Positions 2,459-12,261 of a stretch of 47,767 bases of DNA are shown here, one piece after another (position 1 is the first letter of the stretch; the number at the start of each line of letters is the position of its first letter). The translations under genes and the position numbers were made by a program. The notes beneath the pieces are model-generated. The model did not search any database, had not been told where the DNA came from, and was given only the letters and a program-made list of their open reading frames with translations. The stretch comes from a virus, in the IMG/VR virus record IMGVR_UViG_3300040771_000255, positions 1-47,767 of that record. One strand, 5' to 3'.

Positions 2459-5308
2459 ATGTCACAAAATGTATTCGTTAGTCCTGGTGTTTATACTTCA
2501 GAAAAAGACATTTCATTCATAACACGTCAAGTAGGTGTAACCGCACTTGGGTTAGTTGGTGAAACAACTATTGGTCCAGCTTTCCAGCCAATATTTATAA
2601 CAAATTATGGTGAGTTTCAGTCATTCTTTGGTGGTTTAAATGCTACTAAAGTAAAAGATACTGGTGCTCCACAATATGAATTACCATATATTGCAAAATC
2701 ATATTTATCACAAGCTAATCAATTATTTGTAACTAGAGTTTTAGGGTTTTCTGGTTTCAAAGCTGGCGAAGCTTGGGGAATAACATTGGATGCAGCTATT
2801 GACCCTGAAACAGAGGTTGTAACACAAACAGCTACAAATGTACCAACATTATTTACATTTCAATCAACAACTGGTGCAACAGGTAGTGTAACTAGTTTAA
2901 CTTCAAGTAATCCAAGAATTCAAACATTATTTAATGCTGGTATATTAGACACAGCATTAACTGGGTTAAATCTTGCAACTGTAGGTATGACTGGAACTAC
3001 AGGTACAGAACCATTATATTATAAAATAGCTAGTAATTTTAGTGGTATTAGTTTTACTTTTAGAGTTGGTTCAGTTGGTACTAGCGGTACTTTATTAACT
3101 GGTTCTACTAGTGGTGTAACAATTCAATACAGTGGAACATCATATACTGATTGTGAGAATCAATTAGTTGCTTTAATTCGTTCTAGAGGTACAATTAACT
3201 CTTCAACTGAATTACCAGCATTTGAGGTAACTGGTTCGACTGGTGTTGCTTTTGACCCATCTTATTTAGATGCGACTATGGACGCTAAAGGTGATTTTTC
3301 ACTTAGTGGTAACTCAACACTACAGGGTTTATTCGATTATAACTTATCATTAGATTCAACAAAAATGAATTATATGCCTAGAGTATTAGGTGTTAGTGCA
3401 CAAGATGGTAAAACAGCTTTATTCGTAGAAGAATTATATGGTAATTTATTTAATGATTTATATACTGCTGGTAAAATTATCGGTGTAAAACAAACATTAG
3501 TAAAATACGGTAAAACATTTGAAGAATATCGTACTCAATATCAATCAGCTGAAACTCCTTATGTTGTTTCAGAATTACGTGGTAATAAAGTATTAAGATT
3601 ATTTAAATTTATAACTATTTCTGATGGTAACGCAGCAAATGAACAATTTAAAATATCAATCATTAATATTAAACCAGATGCTAGAGAATTTGATGTTTTA
3701 GTACGTAGTTTTTATGATACCGATGCACAGCCAGTAATATTAGAAAGTTATAGCCGTTGTACTATGGACCCTACTTCAGATAAATTTATTGGTAGAAGAA
3801 TTGGTACTGTTGATGGTTTATATGTTTCTAAATCATCTTACATTGTAGTTGAATTAGACGAGTCTTCAGATACTAGCGGTGCATTTCCAGCTGGTTTTGT
3901 TGGTCTACCAGTTAGAGATTATAAATCAAATAGTAACACAACAGTTATTGAACCATCATTAACTTATAAAAAGACATATGGTGCATTTGAGAATAAACGT
4001 AAATATTATTTAGGTCTTTCAAATACTCAAGGTATTGATGCTGACTTTTTTGATTATAAAGGTATGCCATCTAATCTATCTTATGATAGTTGGACAGGTT
4101 TAACTAAAGGTTTCCACATGGATATTGATGCTTCTGGTGTTACTATTGATAACGTGGTTTTACCATTAGGTACTGGTGGTACTTACAACCCAATATTTGA
4201 GTTTGAAACGGGTAATGCTCAATTTAGAACAGATAATGGATTAACTGGTACTGATTATGAAAAAATTTATGCTCGTAAATTTACATTCGCACCTTATGGT
4301 GGTTTTGATGGGTGGGATGTTTATCGTACAAGTAGAACAAATAAAGATACGTACATAGTTAATGGTGCAAAGGGTATTAGTGGTAGAATTTCTGGTGCTT
4401 TTTCTTATAAAACATTAACAAACGGTGATATTGGTATAAATTCAGATTACTACGCTTATTTAGAAGCTATCTATACATTCCAAAACCCAGAAGCGGTAAA
4501 TATTAATGTATTTGCAACGCCTGGAATTGATAATGTTGATAACACTAACTTGATTGAAGCTGCAATAGAAATGGTAGAACAAGATAGAGCAGATTCACTT
4601 TATATTATGACAACACCAGATGTAAATAGTGGTGGTGATATTATGAGTGTCGAAGACGTTGTTGGTTTATTAGATGGTGGTTTTGATAGTAATTATTCTG
4701 CAACATATTGGCCTTGGGTACAAATAAACGATACTGAAAATAATGTATTAATTTATGTTCCACCAACAAGAGATGTTGTTAGAAATATAGCATTCACAGA
4801 TAATATCGCATTCCCATGGTTTGCAGCGGCTGGTATAAATAGAGGTGATGTTGACGCAATTAAAGCTAGAAAAAAATTAACACTAGCTGAGAGAGATGTT
4901 CTTTATGAAAATAGAATTAACCCTGTTGCAACATTTACATCTGATGGTATAAAAATATGGGGTAATAAAACACTTCAAGTTAAAGAATCAGCACTTAACA
5001 GAATTAATGTTAGAAGATTATTATTACAATCAAGAAAACTTATATCTGCAGTTTCTATCAGATTATTATTTGAACAAAATGATTCAGTTGTTAGAAACCA
5101 ATTCTTAGGACTTGTTAACCCGATATTAGAAAATATCAGAAGTGAAAGAGGTCTTACTGACTTTAGAGTACAACTTTCAAATAGCCCAGAAGATATTGAT
5201 AGAAATCAATTAACTGGTCAAATATTCTTGAAACCAACACGTGCTCTTGAATTTATTAAATTAGAATTTGTAATTATGAATACTGGAGCTTCGTTCTCTA
5301 ACATTTAA
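2459..5308 (+). CDS. 18: Contractile tail sheath protein (T4 gp18-like)
   Basis: 949 residues. The N-terminus (VFVSPGVYTSEKDIS) is the typical start of contractile sheath proteins. The C-terminal part has the conserved sheath fold signature: an arm with ESALNRINVRRLLL, a helix-rich section, then NPILENIRSERGLTDFRV and a closing strand (FIKLEFVIMNTGASF). Sheath subunits stack around the tail tube and contract during infection. It is longer than T4 gp18 (659 residues). The extra length seems to lie in a Thr/Gly/Ser-rich section at about 120-300, likely an exposed inserted domain. The gene is monocistronic, with a promoter motif before it and a terminator after it, as suits a very abundant protein. 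Confidence 0.95.
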   Translation: MSQNVFVSPGVYTSEKDISFITRQVGVTALGLVGETTIGPAFQPIFITNYGEFQSFFGGLNATKVKDTGAPQYELPYIAKSYLSQANQLFVTRVLGFSGFKAGEAWGITLDAAIDPETEVVTQTATNVPTLFTFQSTTGATGSVTSLTSSNPRIQTLFNAGILDTALTGLNLATVGMTGTTGTEPLYYKIASNFSGISFTFRVGSVGTSGTLLTGSTSGVTIQYSGTSYTDCENQLVALIRSRGTINSSTELPAFEVTGSTGVAFDPSYLDATMDAKGDFSLSGNSTLQGLFDYNLSLDSTKMNYMPRVLGVSAQDGKTALFVEELYGNLFNDLYTAGKIIGVKQTLVKYGKTFEEYRTQYQSAETPYVVSELRGNKVLRLFKFITISDGNAANEQFKISIINIKPDAREFDVLVRSFYDTDAQPVILESYSRCTMDPTSDKFIGRRIGTVDGLYVSKSSYIVVELDESSDTSGAFPAGFVGLPVRDYKSNSNTTVIEPSLTYKKTYGAFENKRKYYLGLSNTQGIDADFFDYKGMPSNLSYDSWTGLTKGFHMDIDASGVTIDNVVLPLGTGGTYNPIFEFETGNAQFRTDNGLTGTDYEKIYARKFTFAPYGGFDGWDVYRTSRTNKDTYIVNGAKGISGRISGAFSYKTLTNGDIGINSDYYAYLEAIYTFQNPEAVNINVFATPGIDNVDNTNLIEAAIEMVEQDRADSLYIMTTPDVNSGGDIMSVEDVVGLLDGGFDSNYSATYWPWVQINDTENNVLIYVPPTRDVVRNIAFTDNIAFPWFAAAGINRGDVDAIKARKKLTLAERDVLYENRINPVATFTSDGIKIWGNKTLQVKESALNRINVRRLLLQSRKLISAVSIRLLFEQNDSVVRNQFLGLVNPILENIRSERGLTDFRVQLSNSPEDIDRNQLTGQIFLKPTRALEFIKLEFVIMNTGASFSNI

Positions 5309-5387: not shown

Positions 5388-5792
5388 ATGACTAAAATTA
5401 GAATAACAGAAAAACAATATGAGGTGATTCTTTCATATAAATCTTTATTGAAAGAGGGTGATGATGCGATTAAAACTGATTTAAAGGTTATTTTAGCTAT
5501 TAGTGTGTTAATTGGGTTGAATATTACTGGCCATAATAAAATAATGGCTGATATGGCTTTAAAAGACAAAACAATATTTACTAAAATAAAAGAAACGTTA
5601 GAATCTAAAGATGATTTAGAAGAATTAGTAAAAGCTTTAGAGATAAAGGGACTTAAGAAACCAGAAAAAAAATTAAAAGATGTTATGGGTTCACTTATTA
5701 GTAAATTCAATACTTTATCAAATGAAAATGGTTTTAATATCAAATTATCACCAACTGCTATGGTAAATTTAAATAATCTAGATTCAGAATAA
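5388..5792 (+). CDS. Unknown small protein between sheath and tube genes
   Basis: 134 residues, not recognised. The N-terminus is MTKIRITEKQYEVIL and resembles the N-terminus of the 373-residue protein at 8696 (MAKKIKISESQYNTLQKYLV), so the two share an N-terminal tag-like stretch. Residues 5-8 hold an I-x-T-E type motif (I6-T7-E8), which fits the (I/L)-x-E rule of T4-type prohead proteases. A hydrophobic stretch at about 33-47 (ILAISVLIGLNI) could be a membrane-proximal helix or core. The rest is charged and helical. The gene has its own promoter motif and lies between two major tail genes, which suggests a virion or assembly role. That is inference. Confidence 0.6.
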   Translation: MTKIRITEKQYEVILSYKSLLKEGDDAIKTDLKVILAISVLIGLNITGHNKIMADMALKDKTIFTKIKETLESKDDLEELVKALEIKGLKKPEKKLKDVMGSLISKFNTLSNENGFNIKLSPTAMVNLNNLDSE

Positions 5793-5873: not shown

Positions 5874-6362
5874 ATGGCTGATTTACTAATGAAAATGCCC
5901 TTACCATACGAACCTAAAAAGAAAAATCGTTGGTTAATTACATTCCCAGCTGATTTAGGTATCCAACAATGGTGGTTATCAACAGCTTCAAGACCTTCTA
6001 TAACACAAAATGAAGTCGAAATTCAATTTTTAAATACATCTACATGGGTTTTAGGTAGATTTACTTGGGAATCAATCGATGTGGTATTCCGTGACCCTAT
6101 TGGACCATCAGCAACACAAGCTATTATGGAATGGGTACGTTTACATTCTGAGTCTATTACTGGTCGTCAAGGTTATGCTGCTGGTTATAAAAGACCTGTT
6201 GAACTTGAAATGCTTGACCCTACTGGTGTTGTAGTTGAGAAATGGTTATTAGATGGAACTATGTTAACTAACGTTGGTTTTGGTGATTTAGCTATGGATG
6301 ATGATAGTATTGCTGAAGTTACAACAACACTTAGATTTGATAGAGCTATTCTACTTTTCTAA
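5874..6362 (+). CDS. 19: Tail tube protein (T4 gp19-like)
   Basis: 162 residues, almost the length of T4 gp19 (163). It contains the features of tube subunits: an N-terminal strand with NRWLITFPADLG, the section STWVLGRFTWESIDVVFRDP, then a helix (ATQAIMEWVRLHSE), and closing strands ending in TTTLRFDRAILLF. It forms the inner tube through which DNA passes, polymerising on the baseplate hub inside the sheath. It follows the sheath gene with one small gene between, close to the usual 18-19 order. The leader is A-rich (AAACAAAAACAAC) without a Shine-Dalgarno sequence. Confidence 0.93.
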   Translation: MADLLMKMPLPYEPKKKNRWLITFPADLGIQQWWLSTASRPSITQNEVEIQFLNTSTWVLGRFTWESIDVVFRDPIGPSATQAIMEWVRLHSESITGRQGYAAGYKRPVELEMLDPTGVVVEKWLLDGTMLTNVGFGDLAMDDDSIAEVTTTLRFDRAILLF

Positions 6363-7129: not shown

Positions 7130-8392
7130 ATGGAAAAAAAACCACAAGTATTCCCAAGCAAGGAACAAATAGACATAGCTAACGCTGAAAAATTAAAAAC
7201 GCAAAATTATCAAACTGAAAAAGCTGCAGCTGTAAATGATATTTATGTTGGTCCTACAACCTTAGAAGACACACCAGAGGGGCATAAAGACGCATTGACT
7301 ATGATGCAAGAACATACCGCTAGACAAATGGAACAAAAAGCAAAATTTGGTAAAGTAGTTGAATCCGATTATGCTGAAAAAACAGAAGAAGGTAATAGAT
7401 TTGTCGCACAGAATTACAATTCTCAAATTGAACTTCGTGATAAACAATTAGAAATGAATAAACAACAAACACAAAATTACCAAAAATTAGCTGAAGAAGC
7501 TTCAAATAGACAAATACCAGAAAAGAAAATGCAAGAACCGTATGTAGCTCCAGTACAACCATCATCACCATCATCACAACCATTAGTTGCAAATAATGTT
7601 AGTTATGGTCAACCAACACCTAGTGTAACACCATATATATTAGAAATTAGTCAACCTAATTATAATTCACCATTTGATGTTATCCCTTTACCTTCATTAG
7701 GTAAAACCTATAGAAATAAGAAACCAAATGTTAGACTTGGTTATATGACAACTGCTGATGAAAATATTTTAACTAGTCCAAATTTATTACAAAGTGGGGA
7801 ATTTTTAAATGTATTAATTAATAGAAAAATTCTAGAACCAGACTTGAGATATAATGACTTATTAGTCGGTGATAGAAATGCAATCATGATATGGTTAAGA
7901 GCAACAGGTTATGGTGAAATGTACCCAGTTACCCTTTTAGATGAAAATGGTGATGCATTCGATACTGAATTGAATCTTAACGAATTAAAAACTAAAGAAT
8001 TAGGTGCTGAACCAGATGATGAGGGGTTATTTGATTATACATTTAAATTAGCTAGAGCACAAGTTAAATTCAAATTATTAACGTGTAGTGATATTGACGC
8101 TATAGATGCAATTGTTAGTAGAGAAAAAGAAAACGGTGTTTTAATTGATAATACAACCACATATACATTGGAAAAACGTATTGTAGAAATTAATGGTTCT
8201 AGAGATAAACATACCATTAAAGAATTTTCAAACGTAATCAGAGTACAAGATGGAAAAGATTTTAACAAATATTTAGATATGGTCGAACCTGGGATTGATT
8301 TAAATATTACGGTTGGAACCCCAGGAGGTGGTTCCGTTAATACATTTCTTCCACTTAACATCAGCTTTTTTTGGCCTAACTTCGGAGTATAA
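7130..8392 (+). CDS. 26: T4 gp26-like baseplate hub / tail assembly protein
   Basis: 420 residues. Residues 1-130 are polar, Gln/Lys/Glu-rich and helical, and a Pro/Ser/Gln linker follows (about 135-170). From about 175 a conserved domain begins with FDVIPLPSLGKTYRNKKP, then VRLGYMTTADENIL, then VGDRNAIMIWLRATGYGEMY. This is the pattern of the T4 gp26 family ('P..G..Y....I.....T..DE..L', then 'GDR..L...LR...YG'). T4 gp26 has only about 208 residues, so the N-terminal half is extra. In T4, gp26 is needed for hub assembly. Here the gene lies between tube and tape-measure genes, the position of the G/GT tail chaperones of lambda. Its last 27 codons overlap another open frame, with a T7 run in the overlap. 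Confidence 0.8.
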   Translation: MEKKPQVFPSKEQIDIANAEKLKTQNYQTEKAAAVNDIYVGPTTLEDTPEGHKDALTMMQEHTARQMEQKAKFGKVVESDYAEKTEEGNRFVAQNYNSQIELRDKQLEMNKQQTQNYQKLAEEASNRQIPEKKMQEPYVAPVQPSSPSSQPLVANNVSYGQPTPSVTPYILEISQPNYNSPFDVIPLPSLGKTYRNKKPNVRLGYMTTADENILTSPNLLQSGEFLNVLINRKILEPDLRYNDLLVGDRNAIMIWLRATGYGEMYPVTLLDENGDAFDTELNLNELKTKELGAEPDDEGLFDYTFKLARAQVKFKLLTCSDIDAIDAIVSREKENGVLIDNTTTYTLEKRIVEINGSRDKHTIKEFSNVIRVQDGKDFNKYLDMVEPGIDLNITVGTPGGGSVNTFLPLNISFFWPNFGV

Positions 8393-8627
8393 GGTTTCTT
8401 TATTAGAAGAAATTTATTTATGTACCCAGCACTTAGATGGTTTTGGGTATAGTGATGTTTTACTATTACCAGTTTATGAAAGAAGATTTTATTTGAATTT
8501 AAAAACTAGAGATGTAATGAAACAAAATAAAACAGCGACTGATAATCAACCAAGAGGTAAACAAAATAAACTTAGCGGTGATAATCTAAAAAATAGAATG
8601 AATAATGGTGATATACCATTATTATAA
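8313..8627 (+). CDS. Overlapping +1-frame extension of the gp26-like gene (GT/gp51-like)
   Basis: The frame is open from 8313 to the TAA at 8625-8627 (104 codons), but the only possible start in the overlap is a TTG at 8313. The first ATG is late, at 8517. Sequence with clear protein character starts near the end of the overlap: FFGLTSEYKVSLLEEIYLCT, then HLDGFGYSDVLLLPVYERRF, and it ends in a basic polar tail. Short domains with 'Y....LP...R.FY' after the gp26 domain are known from T4-like phages, and I suspect a gp51-like or lambda T-like extension. Because it lacks a credible start codon and overlaps the gp26-like gene by 80 bases, expression as a frameshift fusion is most likely. The product name is inference. 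Confidence 0.6.
   Translation: MEPQEVVPLIHFFHLTSAFFGLTSEYKVSLLEEIYLCTQHLDGFGYSDVLLLPVYERRFYLNLKTRDVMKQNKTATDNQPRGKQNKLSGDNLKNRMNNGDIPLL
8366..8372 (+). promoter_or_regulatory. Candidate programmed frameshift site (T7 run)
   Basis: Seven T residues are read as TTT TTT T in the gp26-like frame, eight codons before its stop at 8390-8392. Moving +1 (or -2) here enters the downstream open frame, which reads GCT TTT TTT GGC across the same bases. The fused product would have about 414 residues of the gp26-like protein plus about 84 more. A homopolymer sequencing or assembly error is the main alternative. Confidence 0.5.
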
Positions 8628-8695: not shown

Positions 8696-9817
8696 ATGGC
8701 TAAAAAAATTAAAATTAGTGAATCACAATATAATACATTACAAAAATATTTGGTTGAGACACCTTATGATGAAGTATATAAAAGTATTAAAGTGGATGAT
8801 ATAATAGAAATCGAAAACAAGGGTAATATTTCTAAATATAAAGTAATGTATTTTGGTGGTAATCAAAATGTTGTTTTATCTGGGGTAACACCAAATGTTA
8901 ATAAATATTATTTTGCAATGAATAAAAACGATTTTTATAATGGAACTTTAAAAGCTAGGTTTATACCAAAAGACGAATTTATCGCAAATAGAGATATTGA
9001 CACTTGGAAAGAATATAGTATGAATATTACCAGTTTCAAACTAATCAGAAATAATTCAATTATTGACACTGTAGATATTAATGATTCAACACAGGAACCA
9101 GAAGAACCGCAAACACCACAAGGTGATGTAGTATCAGAACCAATAGATTTAAATCCTAAAAATACTAGCCCTGAAGCTATTGCTGCTGAAAAGGATGAAG
9201 AAGATAAAAAAGAAGCGGCTAAAAAAGAAGCTGAAATTAAAGCTGCTGGTCAAAGAGCTTTAGAGGCGATTATTAATGATAAAGACTTACAAGCAGCTTT
9301 TTATAGACAACCTAGTTTTTGGAAATTATTTGTTGCTGATATGACTGGAACAAAAGCGGTAGGTAAAGGTATAGTACCAACAGTTATTGGTTTAGTTAAT
9401 AGATATAAAAATAAAGAAACTAATGAGAAAGCTTATGAAGATTTTAAACGACATAGAATAGCTGATTTTAGTGTTTTAGAATTAGTTGAAATTATAGCTA
9501 CTGGTGACCAAAATCCGTTTTTTGCAATTGAACCTAATGTTGATTTAAACGCTACAGTTCAAGATTATTTTGAACCAACTACTGGGAATGTTAAATTAGT
9601 TAATAATAAAATTAGTCCTGATAGACCAAATGGTTTTTCTATGTATGTTAGAGGTATAACTAATGAAGAAAACGTATATCTATGTGATTTTGAAACAACT
9701 AGGGATGAGGTTGATAAGGTTACTGATACAAGGATTAAAAACAAATATAAAACAAAAACTCCAGTTAAAGTTAGATTTAACGTATCTGCTGGATATATCC
9801 CACAAAAAAATAAATAA
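8696..9817 (+). CDS. Unknown protein upstream of the tape measure gene
   Basis: 373 residues, not recognised. Three parts are visible. An N-terminal part (1-130) begins with KKIKISESQYNTLQKYLV, related to the start of the protein at 5388, and carries an I7-S8-E9 motif. The middle (about 135-200) is an acidic, Pro/Glu/Lys/Ala-rich linker with a charged helix (EKDEEDKKEAAKKEAEIKAA). The C-terminal domain (about 200-373) has helices followed by strands (VKVRFNVSAGYI). The gene runs with only two bases of spacing into the tape-measure gene and has its own promoter motif, so both are probably expressed together. A tail assembly or internal tail protein is plausible but not shown. Confidence 0.6.
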   Translation: MAKKIKISESQYNTLQKYLVETPYDEVYKSIKVDDIIEIENKGNISKYKVMYFGGNQNVVLSGVTPNVNKYYFAMNKNDFYNGTLKARFIPKDEFIANRDIDTWKEYSMNITSFKLIRNNSIIDTVDINDSTQEPEEPQTPQGDVVSEPIDLNPKNTSPEAIAAEKDEEDKKEAAKKEAEIKAAGQRALEAIINDKDLQAAFYRQPSFWKLFVADMTGTKAVGKGIVPTVIGLVNRYKNKETNEKAYEDFKRHRIADFSVLELVEIIATGDQNPFFAIEPNVDLNATVQDYFEPTTGNVKLVNNKISPDRPNGFSMYVRGITNEENVYLCDFETTRDEVDKVTDTRIKNKYKTKTPVKVRFNVSAGYIPQKNK

Positions 9818-9819
9818 AG

Positions 9820-12261
9820 ATGGCAGCATTAACACCAGAAGAATTAGCTAAACTAGCGTTAGAGCAGACGAAATTAGCTACGATACAATTAAAAGAACAA
9901 GCAAAAATTAGAGCTGAGTTAAGTAATAGTCTTGATGGTTATATCAAGGGTATTAAGGATTTAAAAGCTATTCAAGATACTATAAAATATAATGAGGAAA
10001 AAATATTAAAGTTAAAAAATGATGGTATTACAAGAACTGATGAGGAACTAGCAATACATGAAGCTAAACTTAAAATATTAGAAGAACAAACAAAAATATT
10101 AAGAACTCAAGGTGTTGAATTAAAAGCAGCGCTTAAAACCGTAAACACAACAAATTTAGCTATGTCTAAAATTGCATCTTCAGCGGTTAAAGGTTTGGCC
10201 CAATTACCAGGTATTATACAAAACTCATTTGGTAAACTTAAAGGTTATGGGTTATTTGAAATGGATAAGGCAATTAAAATGTCAGCATTACAAATGGGTC
10301 TTTTAGGTAAAGAAGGTGATGAATTTAATAAGACAATGATTAGGGTCGCTGGTGATACTAACAATATTGGTGTTACTGTTGAGAAATTAAGCGCTTTACA
10401 AGCTGATTTTAATTATAATCTAGGTAGAACTCTTATGCTTAGTGATAAGAACCTTAAAGCTATGGCAGCGATGTCAGTGGCTACAGGTTTAAGTTCTGAA
10501 GATGTAGGTCAAATGGCTTCTGATATGGATGAACAAGGTAAGTCAGTATCAGAAACCAGTAAGTATTTAGAGGACAGTATGAATAGTAGTCACGCAATGG
10601 GTCTTAATGCTACTAAAGTTATTAAGAATATTCAATCAAATATGAAATTACTTAATAAAACTAATTTTAAAGATGGTGTTAAAGGTTTAGAAGCTATGGG
10701 TAAATTAGCAACTAAATTAGGTGTTAAAATGGATTTTGCTGCTGGTATGAGTGATAAACTATGGGATATCGAAGGTGCTGTAGATATGTCTGCTCAATTG
10801 CAAGTTATGGGCGGTGCTTGGGCTAAACTAGCTGACCCATTCCATTTAATGTATATGGCTCGTAATGATATGAAAGGTTTAACTGAAGAAATAGCAAATG
10901 CTTCACAAGCATCTATGCATTTAGGTAAAGATGGTGGAATAGAAATGACTTCAATGGAAATGTCTAGACTTAAAATTGTAGCTAAAGAGGCTAATTTGGA
11001 ATATGATGACTTAGTTAAATCTGGAAAAGAACTCTTTAAAATGAATAAAGTAAAACAACAGATTGGTTTTCAAGTTGACCCAGAAACTAAAGAATTTATA
11101 GCAAATACAGCCCAATTAAATAAAAAAGGTAAAGCAGAAATTGATATTAAAGGTTATACTAAATTAATGTCACAATTAACATCTGCAGATGTTAATTATT
11201 TAAAAACTAAAACATTAGAAAAAGCAAGTTTAGAAGAACGAGCTAAAGCATCGCAAAATTTTGACGATAAGGTTACAAATTTTATTAATATGGTCAAAAC
11301 ATATATGTTACCAATTATTGATGGAATTAATGATGTGTTAAGTCCAATCGTAGATAAATTTATGAAAGGTGATTTTAAAGGTGAAATACGTAAAATTGGT
11401 GAAAGTATTGGTAACTCTATAATAGCTGTAAAACCAGTTTTTGACGCTATTGGTAATTTTATAAACATGTTAGGACCAGGTAAAACTTTAGGGTTATTAT
11501 TTGGTGGTAAAATACTATTTGATGTGGCTTTATGGGCTTTGAATGGTGTTAGTTTAGGTCAAGCATTTTTAGCAACAACTAAAAGTTTTGGAAATGGAAT
11601 GCCTGGTGCGTCAAGTTCATGGACACCAGGTCAATCTGGAAACGGTAAAGGTTGGTCTATGGGTAAAAGAGTTGGTGCTGGTGTTGGTCTAGGCGTTGCT
11701 GGTATGGGAGCTGATTATTTAACAGATAAATACACTGAAGAAGGTAGTAACGCTAATATTGGTGGTAAAGCACTGTCTGGTGCTTTATCTGGCGCTGCTA
11801 TGGGTGCAATGTTAGGTCCTTGGGGGTTAGCTGGTGGTGCATTAATTGGTGGATTATATGGTGGTATAACAGCAGCAATGAAAGAACCAAAAAATAAAAT
11901 AAATGGAGTTAATAACCCAACAATAAAACAACCAATTAATGATGGAATATCTAAAAGTGGTTATAGTAGAGGTATTTTAGCTGGTGGGACTATTACACCA
12001 ATTAGTAATAAAGATGATTTAATGTCTTTTAAATCTAAAGGTCTTATTGATAATGCTTTAAATAAAAATGCAAATGTTCCAAGTACAATGAAAATTGAGT
12101 TTGGTGAGATTAAATTTGGTGGTGAATTAAAATTAACAACACCAGGTTCTCCTGGTCAAGGTATAGATTTACTTAAAAACCAAGATTTCATTAGAAACAT
12201 GACTACGTTGATACATTCTGAAACACAAAAACAAATTAATGGTGGAAAAAATAAAGGTTAA
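9820..12261 (+). CDS. Tail tape measure protein
   Basis: 813 residues. Residues 1-110 are a long charged coiled coil (many E, K, L heptads), followed by helical sections rich in Ala, Met and Lys. A hydrophobic zone covers about 485-590 (with LGPGKTLGLLFGGKILFDVA), and a Gly/Ala-rich segment at about 610-690 (GAGVGLGVAGMGADYL and GPWGLAGGALIGGLYGG) resembles membrane-inserting zones of tape measure proteins. The size, helical content, glycine-zipper-like region and position after tube and gp26-like genes support this role. The protein would set tail length and be ejected with the DNA. It takes the place of T4 gp29 (590 residues), but I cannot claim sequence similarity to it. Confidence 0.8.
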   Translation: MAALTPEELAKLALEQTKLATIQLKEQAKIRAELSNSLDGYIKGIKDLKAIQDTIKYNEEKILKLKNDGITRTDEELAIHEAKLKILEEQTKILRTQGVELKAALKTVNTTNLAMSKIASSAVKGLAQLPGIIQNSFGKLKGYGLFEMDKAIKMSALQMGLLGKEGDEFNKTMIRVAGDTNNIGVTVEKLSALQADFNYNLGRTLMLSDKNLKAMAAMSVATGLSSEDVGQMASDMDEQGKSVSETSKYLEDSMNSSHAMGLNATKVIKNIQSNMKLLNKTNFKDGVKGLEAMGKLATKLGVKMDFAAGMSDKLWDIEGAVDMSAQLQVMGGAWAKLADPFHLMYMARNDMKGLTEEIANASQASMHLGKDGGIEMTSMEMSRLKIVAKEANLEYDDLVKSGKELFKMNKVKQQIGFQVDPETKEFIANTAQLNKKGKAEIDIKGYTKLMSQLTSADVNYLKTKTLEKASLEERAKASQNFDDKVTNFINMVKTYMLPIIDGINDVLSPIVDKFMKGDFKGEIRKIGESIGNSIIAVKPVFDAIGNFINMLGPGKTLGLLFGGKILFDVALWALNGVSLGQAFLATTKSFGNGMPGASSSWTPGQSGNGKGWSMGKRVGAGVGLGVAGMGADYLTDKYTEEGSNANIGGKALSGALSGAAMGAMLGPWGLAGGALIGGLYGGITAAMKEPKNKINGVNNPTIKQPINDGISKSGYSRGILAGGTITPISNKDDLMSFKSKGLIDNALNKNANVPSTMKIEFGEIKFGGELKLTTPGSPGQGIDLLKNQDFIRNMTTLIHSETQKQINGGKNKG

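Follow-up and report, generated by a model that had tools for sequence, protein, structure and literature searches.

The window analysed here, i.e., the whole 47,767-nucleotide stretch of viral DNA (positions 1 to 47,767 of IMG/VR record IMGVR_UViG_3300040771_000255), carries a gp26-like gene whose 3' end is overlapped by a second open frame, in a region that also encodes tail sheath and tail tube proteins (Table 1). One ORF separates the tube gene from the gp26-like gene and one ORF also lies between the latter and the probable tape measure gene. The location between tube and tape measure, which the original prediction made from the sequence had assumed, is thus borne out, with a weak assignment of the tape measure (E 0.021); in the annotations of the phages immuto and LIS04, the gp26-like gene is flanked by tube and tape measure as well. 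Within the window, no Rfam family reached its gathering score and no tRNA was found. Two ORFs of the tail region (5388-5792 and 8696-9817) have similar N-termini (MTKIRITEKQYEVIL... and MAKKIKISESQYNTLQ...), perhaps a targeting or cleavage signal, and the start of the contig (positions 3-404) encodes imperfect protein repeats (TGSTSTNNTFTGGTVTGATQFTNG) that perhaps belong to a cut fibre gene.

Table 1. Features of the tail region in the window
Feature	Position	Strand	Evidence or remark
Tail sheath	2459..5308	+	PHROG_23, E 4.2e-57
Tail tube protein	5874..6362	+	PHROG_4542, E 4.2e-25
gp26-like short form, tail assembly chaperone / baseplate hub family protein	7130..8392	+	0 frame, 420 aa
N-terminal region of about 177 residues preceding the gp26 domain	7130..7660	+	upstream open frame also in relatives
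Putative slip site TTT TTT TGG C	8366..8375	+	T7 then GG at the site in 74/87 loci
0-frame stop TAA	8390..8392	+	18 nt past the P-site codon
Predicted +1 extension, 84 aa, T / gp51-C-terminus-like	8373..8627	+	selection, profile links
Probable tape measure protein (weak)	9820..12261	+	E 0.021 in one comparison, with the tape measure annotated in phage immuto

The ORF coordinates confirm the predicted overlap between the gp26-like frame, which ends at 8392, and a frame that continues to 8627: the second ORF (8313-8627, first codon TTG) lies in the +1 frame relative to 7130-8392. The predicted run of seven T (8366-8372) is indeed located inside this overlap, where codons 413-415 of the 0 frame read TTT TTT TGG. 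If pairing at the second TTT moved by +1 (from 8369-8371 to 8370-8372), with GGC as the next codon, the product would have 498 amino acids, 84 of them from the new frame, in which ...NISFF is followed directly by GLTSEYK.... In a family profile search, the short form is matched by PHROG_150 ("baseplate hub") at E 2.7e-7 over residues 189-404, which places it in the gp26/gp51 family discussed below. Pfam PF12322 did not match the window protein at E 1; it matched the relatives LIS04 (3.5e-18) and XacN1 (1.5e-21). An upstream open frame of 79-214 codons also precedes the gp26 domain in the 11 nearest relatives (L008-L018 in our numbering of loci), and in the other loci of the 87-locus set described below it never passed the 60-codon cut-off. 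When the extension alone was used as the query, it matched Microcystis phage Mel-JY01 at E 4e-4, directly 3' of the gp26-like match and in the +1 frame of that phage; two further matches had E 8.

Since the window holds 15 runs of seven or more T, the slip-site run included, the T7 run taken alone is no evidence of frameshifting. We compared it across a +1 set of 87 loci, comprising the best 80 of at least 587 IMG/VR relatives from a profile scan, the window and six phage records (Mel-JY01, immuto, LR756508, LIS04, SagM-GXN1 and SP-15). In this selection of the best 80 relatives plus seven, the protein goes on in the +1 frame in all 87 loci, five of which end at a contig edge, and the 82 complete extensions reach 61-114 residues past the slip (median, 74). 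The original prediction had proposed to compare the T run in related phages and had stated that relatives whose gene is unbroken and lacks a slippery run would speak against it; the opposite was found, with every locus of the +1 group interrupted at the 3' end of the gene and a run of seven T or longer at the site in 77 of the 87. Specifically, TTTTTTTGG (TTT TTT TGG) occupies the site in 74 loci of this selection, other runs of at least seven T in three (L039, L042 and L082), and T6 in three more (L004, L022 and L100). The remaining seven have a broken run, reading TTT CTT TGG (L002 and L077), TTT CTA TTC (L003), TTT TTA TGG (L063), CTT TTC TAC (L067), TTC TTT TGG (L069) and TTC TTT CGT (L098), and all retain the possibility of a YTT-to-TTY slip. 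Found together in all 87 loci, site and +1 extension are conserved well beyond chance. TTTTTTTGG has 79 copies on the strand of the gene in the 508,778 bases of the set, and among the 81 loci with Phe-Phe at the site, 79 use TTT TTT, where the Phe codon usage of these loci predicts 44.7. TGG stands in the A site in 77/87 loci, among them the window, and the 0-frame stop comes 9 to 21 nt past the P-site codon. One locus, L067, deviates from the +1 pattern: around its positions 3210-3300, the 0 frame ends in VDLFYPDFKK and a second FFGITPEYK comes later in the +1 frame, an arrangement that is either a variant or an insertion.

The protein character attributed to the second frame past the overlap is upheld by its substitution pattern. 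Among eight close sequences, pN/pS of the extension is 0.47 in the +1 frame versus 0.82 and 1.55 in the other frames, i.e., the extension is under purifying selection as a protein in the +1 frame. As a control of frame, the -1 frame stays open for at least 55 codons past the stop in four of the 87 loci, and in a 90-locus set the +1 frame never exceeds 29 codons. That the second frame has no credible start, as originally stated, holds for 41/87 loci, where ATG, GTG and TTG are all absent from the +1 frame before the slip; the other 46, the window included, have a TTG or another possible start. The first Met is found at index 28 or later in 59 of the 82 complete extensions, and conserved residues start directly past the slip. 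None of the 16 annotated phage records (L001, L002, L004, L005, L089-L098, L100 and L101) joins the two frames; in some of them, part of the extension appears as a small annotated ORF (L001, 6740-6976; L002, 6833-6943; L094, 2277-2381). The predicted long chaperone is therefore missing from all 16 records, an omission that the present comparison corrects.

Other branches of the family carry the extension in the opposite frame. Our -1 set comprised 103 loci, namely, 13 phage records (jumbo phages, cyanophage C48C1 and uncultured LR756511) and IMG/VR loci of the cyanophage type (10) and the jumbo type (80). Each of the three large IMG/VR scans of this analysis, that for the +1 set included, contributed its best 80 loci. 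In 103/103 loci, five ending at a contig edge, the extension is in the -1 frame and has an XXXYYYZ heptamer, when the nearest in-frame heptamer before the stop is taken and any site within 120 nt upstream is accepted; the heptamers are TTTTTTC (74), TTTTTTT (18) and AAATTTT (11). A further best 80 cyanophage-type loci show the same pattern in 80/80 cases (TTTTTTC, 38; TTTTTTT, 35; TTTTTTA, 6; TTTTTTG, 1). Named phages with this arrangement include P-SSM2 (AGT TTT TTC GTA TAA), HTVC008M (AGT TTT TTT TAA) and phiM12 (AAT TTT TTT ACT); PHROG_150 matches two frames across the junction in all three, and the second match in HTVC008M holds two stops. Salmonella phage Vi01 also has its extension in the -1 frame, but the site there, GAA ATT TTC ATT, departs from the canonical heptamer. 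In LR756511 (L099, about 2205-2275), the -1 extension has its heptamer 69 nt upstream of the 0-frame stop, and this locus is possibly an intermediate of a switch in direction. Two partial matches (L112 and L113) stand outside the junction counts.

In T4, the two forms are encoded separately. PF12322 matches both T4 gp26 (8.8e-64) and T4 gp51 (3.9e-52); gp51 spans PHROG_150 to position 280 of 282 in one frame, and gp26 stops at position 235, which corresponds approximately to the end of frame 0 in the window. By these profile matches, gp26 and gp51 are one family, with gp51 as the in-frame long form. They are two separate genes on opposite strands, and Campylobacter phage CP220 likewise has two separate genes, one of them with an in-frame extension. 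The claim that T4 does not show a G/GT pair in this form therefore stands insofar as T4 has no single shifted gene, but the pair itself exists there as two genes, with gp26 short and gp51 long. In a quick, midpoint-rooted tree of the shared domain, built from a chosen subset of loci (65 rows), T4 gp26 and gp51 cluster with the cyanophages (branch value 98), the T4 gp26 branch being long. The +1 rows fall into one group (96), which also holds the -1 locus of LR756511 near its base in an open placement, and two changes of shift direction are needed on this tree. We infer that the T4 arrangement may derive from a frameshifting ancestor, and put it no more strongly because the tree is quick, 19 of its 62 inner forks are open and the T4 gp26 branch is long.

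Profile comparisons connect the extensions across these lineages. The +1 extension matches the jumbo-phage -1 extension with a probability of 97.7 and the cyanophage extension with 95.8, and the cyanophage extension in turn matches the C-terminus of T4-like gp51 with 94.9. Reversed profiles remained below 1, and the best of 51 block controls reached 38.7. The direct comparison of the +1 extension with the gp51 C-terminus was not significant against this control (27.9, and 20.9 with roles swapped), and jumbo versus cyanophage (13.9; 66.2 swapped) and jumbo versus gp51 (7.6; 33.5 swapped) were weak. Since the direct and jumbo matches are weak, the relationship of the +1 extension to the gp51 C-terminus runs through the cyanophage bridge, by which the profiles link the two. 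The extension profiles were built without L067, L099 and the loci ending at a contig edge, and the gp51 profile without L122, a short ORF.

The model of the gp26 domain from the window (pLDDT 90.4) found as its top solved structures 3klu (YqbN; Z 5.1, 82 residues, 3.7 A), which we take to be a tail chaperone, a role that its structure title does not give, and the HK97 tail assembly chaperone 2ob9 (Z 5.0, 79 residues, 3.9 A). Both matches lie inside residues 1-89. Z values of about 5 are modest; 5ir0, a protein of unknown function, ties with them at Z 4.2, and the structure after that has 2.5. With Foldseek alone, 2ob9 appeared at rank 16 (E 2.5), and a sequence search for solved structures returned none at a significant E-value. 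A model of T4-like gp51 (pLDDT 81) places three C-terminal helices at the position of the extension, with lower confidence (53-64), and its matches in the PDB included no tail chaperone. Among viral predicted structures, both the gp26 domain and the gp51 models recovered the baseplate hub family.

What kind of event would join the two frames? The presence of seven or more T in 77/87 loci of AT-rich genomes is what one would expect if RNA polymerase dropped one U, or added two, in the run and so put part of the mRNAs in frame. However, the run is broken in seven of the 87 loci, in four of them down to runs of three T, and the same frame jump and YTT-to-TTY pairing are kept; moreover, sister lineages shift by -1 at tRNA-type heptamers, 11 of 103 being AAATTTT. 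We consider such transcriptional slippage very unlikely. The broken sites also bear on the direction of a ribosomal slip, which the original prediction had left as +1 or -2. Slippage by -2 is reported for phage Mu, and on a T7 run Phe could re-pair either one base forward or two bases back, the -2 product being one residue longer (predicted junction peptide NISFFGLTSEYK for +1 and NISFFFGLTSEYK for -2). Since TTC TTT TGG (L069), TTC TTT CGT (L098) and AAC TTT CTA (L003) allow Phe re-pairing one base forward and not two back, +1 is favoured, and we give -2 no better odds than a slipping polymerase.

Still less probable, in our estimation, is that the downstream frame makes a separate protein by re-initiation, as the small downstream ORFs annotated in databases might suggest (e.g., "baseplate hub assembly catalyst" in phage C48C1). 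The 41 loci without any start before the slip and the conserved residues right past it speak against this, as do T4 and CP220, where such an extension is fused in frame to a gp26-type domain. Homopolymers are also the classic site of sequencing or assembly errors, which could split one intact gene, but the +1 interruption appears in 87 separate records, cultured phages among them, and in one direction throughout the group, so that an artifact has practically negligible probability. On the recurrence in 87 loci, the broken-run variants and the start-codon counts, we rejected all four explanations.

Very probably, then, a programmed +1 frameshift produces a G/GT-like pair of tail assembly chaperones, one short and one long; the comparison of sequences supports the predicted frameshift, its +1 sense and the analogy with G/GT. 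Most ribosomes would stay in frame 0 and terminate at 8390, yielding the short gp26-like form. A minority would slip at TTT TTT TGG, the P-site Phe-tRNA moving from UUU to the overlapping UUU while UGG waits in the A site, then read GGC and add 84 residues. The resulting long form would be the counterpart of lambda gpGT and T4 gp51. If the lambda case is a guide, the short form in many copies and the long form in few may coat the tape measure protein, with the extension recruiting tube subunits. We infer this slippage, its rate, its tRNA mechanism and the role in tail assembly from the conserved site and the family. The element common to the loci would be P-site YUU re-pairing on UUY one base forward, and UUU and CCC are given in the PRFect paper, where it touches on RF2 tests, as the next most slippery P-site codons after CUU (PMC10885494). 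Strong RNA structure downstream of the site was not found in the +1 group, where folding barely exceeds the control (mean z, -0.81 versus -0.42 in the control); the -1 group does have structure there, with a mean z of -1.77 versus -0.43 in the control (98 loci). At 11-71 nt past the shift codon, z is below -2 in 44% of these 98 -1 loci. SD-like purine motifs stand just upstream of the slip in 25/82 loci of the +1 set, compared with 8/82 and 3/82 at two control positions, and none is present in the 17 nt upstream of the window's site.

Several known systems come close. Like lambda G/GT and the case of archaeal phage HSTV-2, the window would have short and long forms with a common N-terminus, encoded before the tape measure (a weak assignment here). 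An overlapping second frame conserved as protein and a conserved slippery site, both traits of G/GT-type chaperones, are present as well; lambda shifts by -1, whereas the window would shift by +1. The RF2 gene (prfB) shares the P-site YUU that slips to UUY one base forward, but its waiting A-site codon is a stop, where the window has TGG and the 87 loci mostly UGG (77/87). The RF2 frameshift also has a Shine-Dalgarno stimulator, to which nothing in the window corresponds. The -1 gp26-type cases with poly-T share with the window a T run at the 3' end of the short-form gene and a homologous extension, but use TTTTTTN or AAATTTT in the -1 loci examined; the window has TTT TTT TGG and a downstream frame of +1, unlike the -1 frame of the XXXYYYZ class. 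T4 gp26/gp51 share with it the family (PHROG_150, and PF12322 for T4 and some relatives) and the short/long architecture, but as two genes on opposite strands rather than one gene with a +1 shift.

Several of these elements have precedents. The Atkins 2016 review (PMC5009743) describes the G/GT shift as widely conserved "except T4", with tailed phages using -1, -2 or +1 in the tail chaperone role, and the archaeal phage HSTV-2 as very likely +1, the direction predicted for the window. Since +1 shifts are reported in the tail chaperones of other phages, a +1 shift in this role is not new in itself. According to citing papers, a short/long chaperone pair in T4 was already proposed by Vladimirov, Gautam and Davidson in 2022, whose title announces another mechanism in T4-like phages; they are credited with one short and one longer fused gene in some T4-like phages (PRFect, PMC10885494) and with poly-T -1 signals in T4-like phages (Adele paper, PMC12846349). 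Our searches of the open-licence literature returned no report of gp26-type genes with a +1 site.

Taken together, the sequence tests point to a conserved programmed +1 frameshift site, and family and position suggest its function. Beyond this, we lean towards a scenario in which a homologous chaperone gene kept its Phe-Phe shift point and reversed the direction of the slip, with -1 in jumbo phages and cyanophages and +1 in a large, mostly uncultured clade, while T4 and CP220 gave up the shift and came to encode the short and long forms in two genes; UUU UUU UGG C would then represent a new, widespread type of +1 site, at which a sense codon rather than a stop occupies the A site. If so, the -1 site would be mostly U UUU UUN, and the +1 clade with UUU UUU UGG would include phages of Flavobacterium, Microcystis and Gram-positive hosts. 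Frameshifting would be the usual state of the gp26 family across the lineages sampled, with the two-gene state observed in T4-type phages and one Campylobacter phage, and the family may serve as a natural experiment in which the direction of the slip was reversed and the protein is still homologous.
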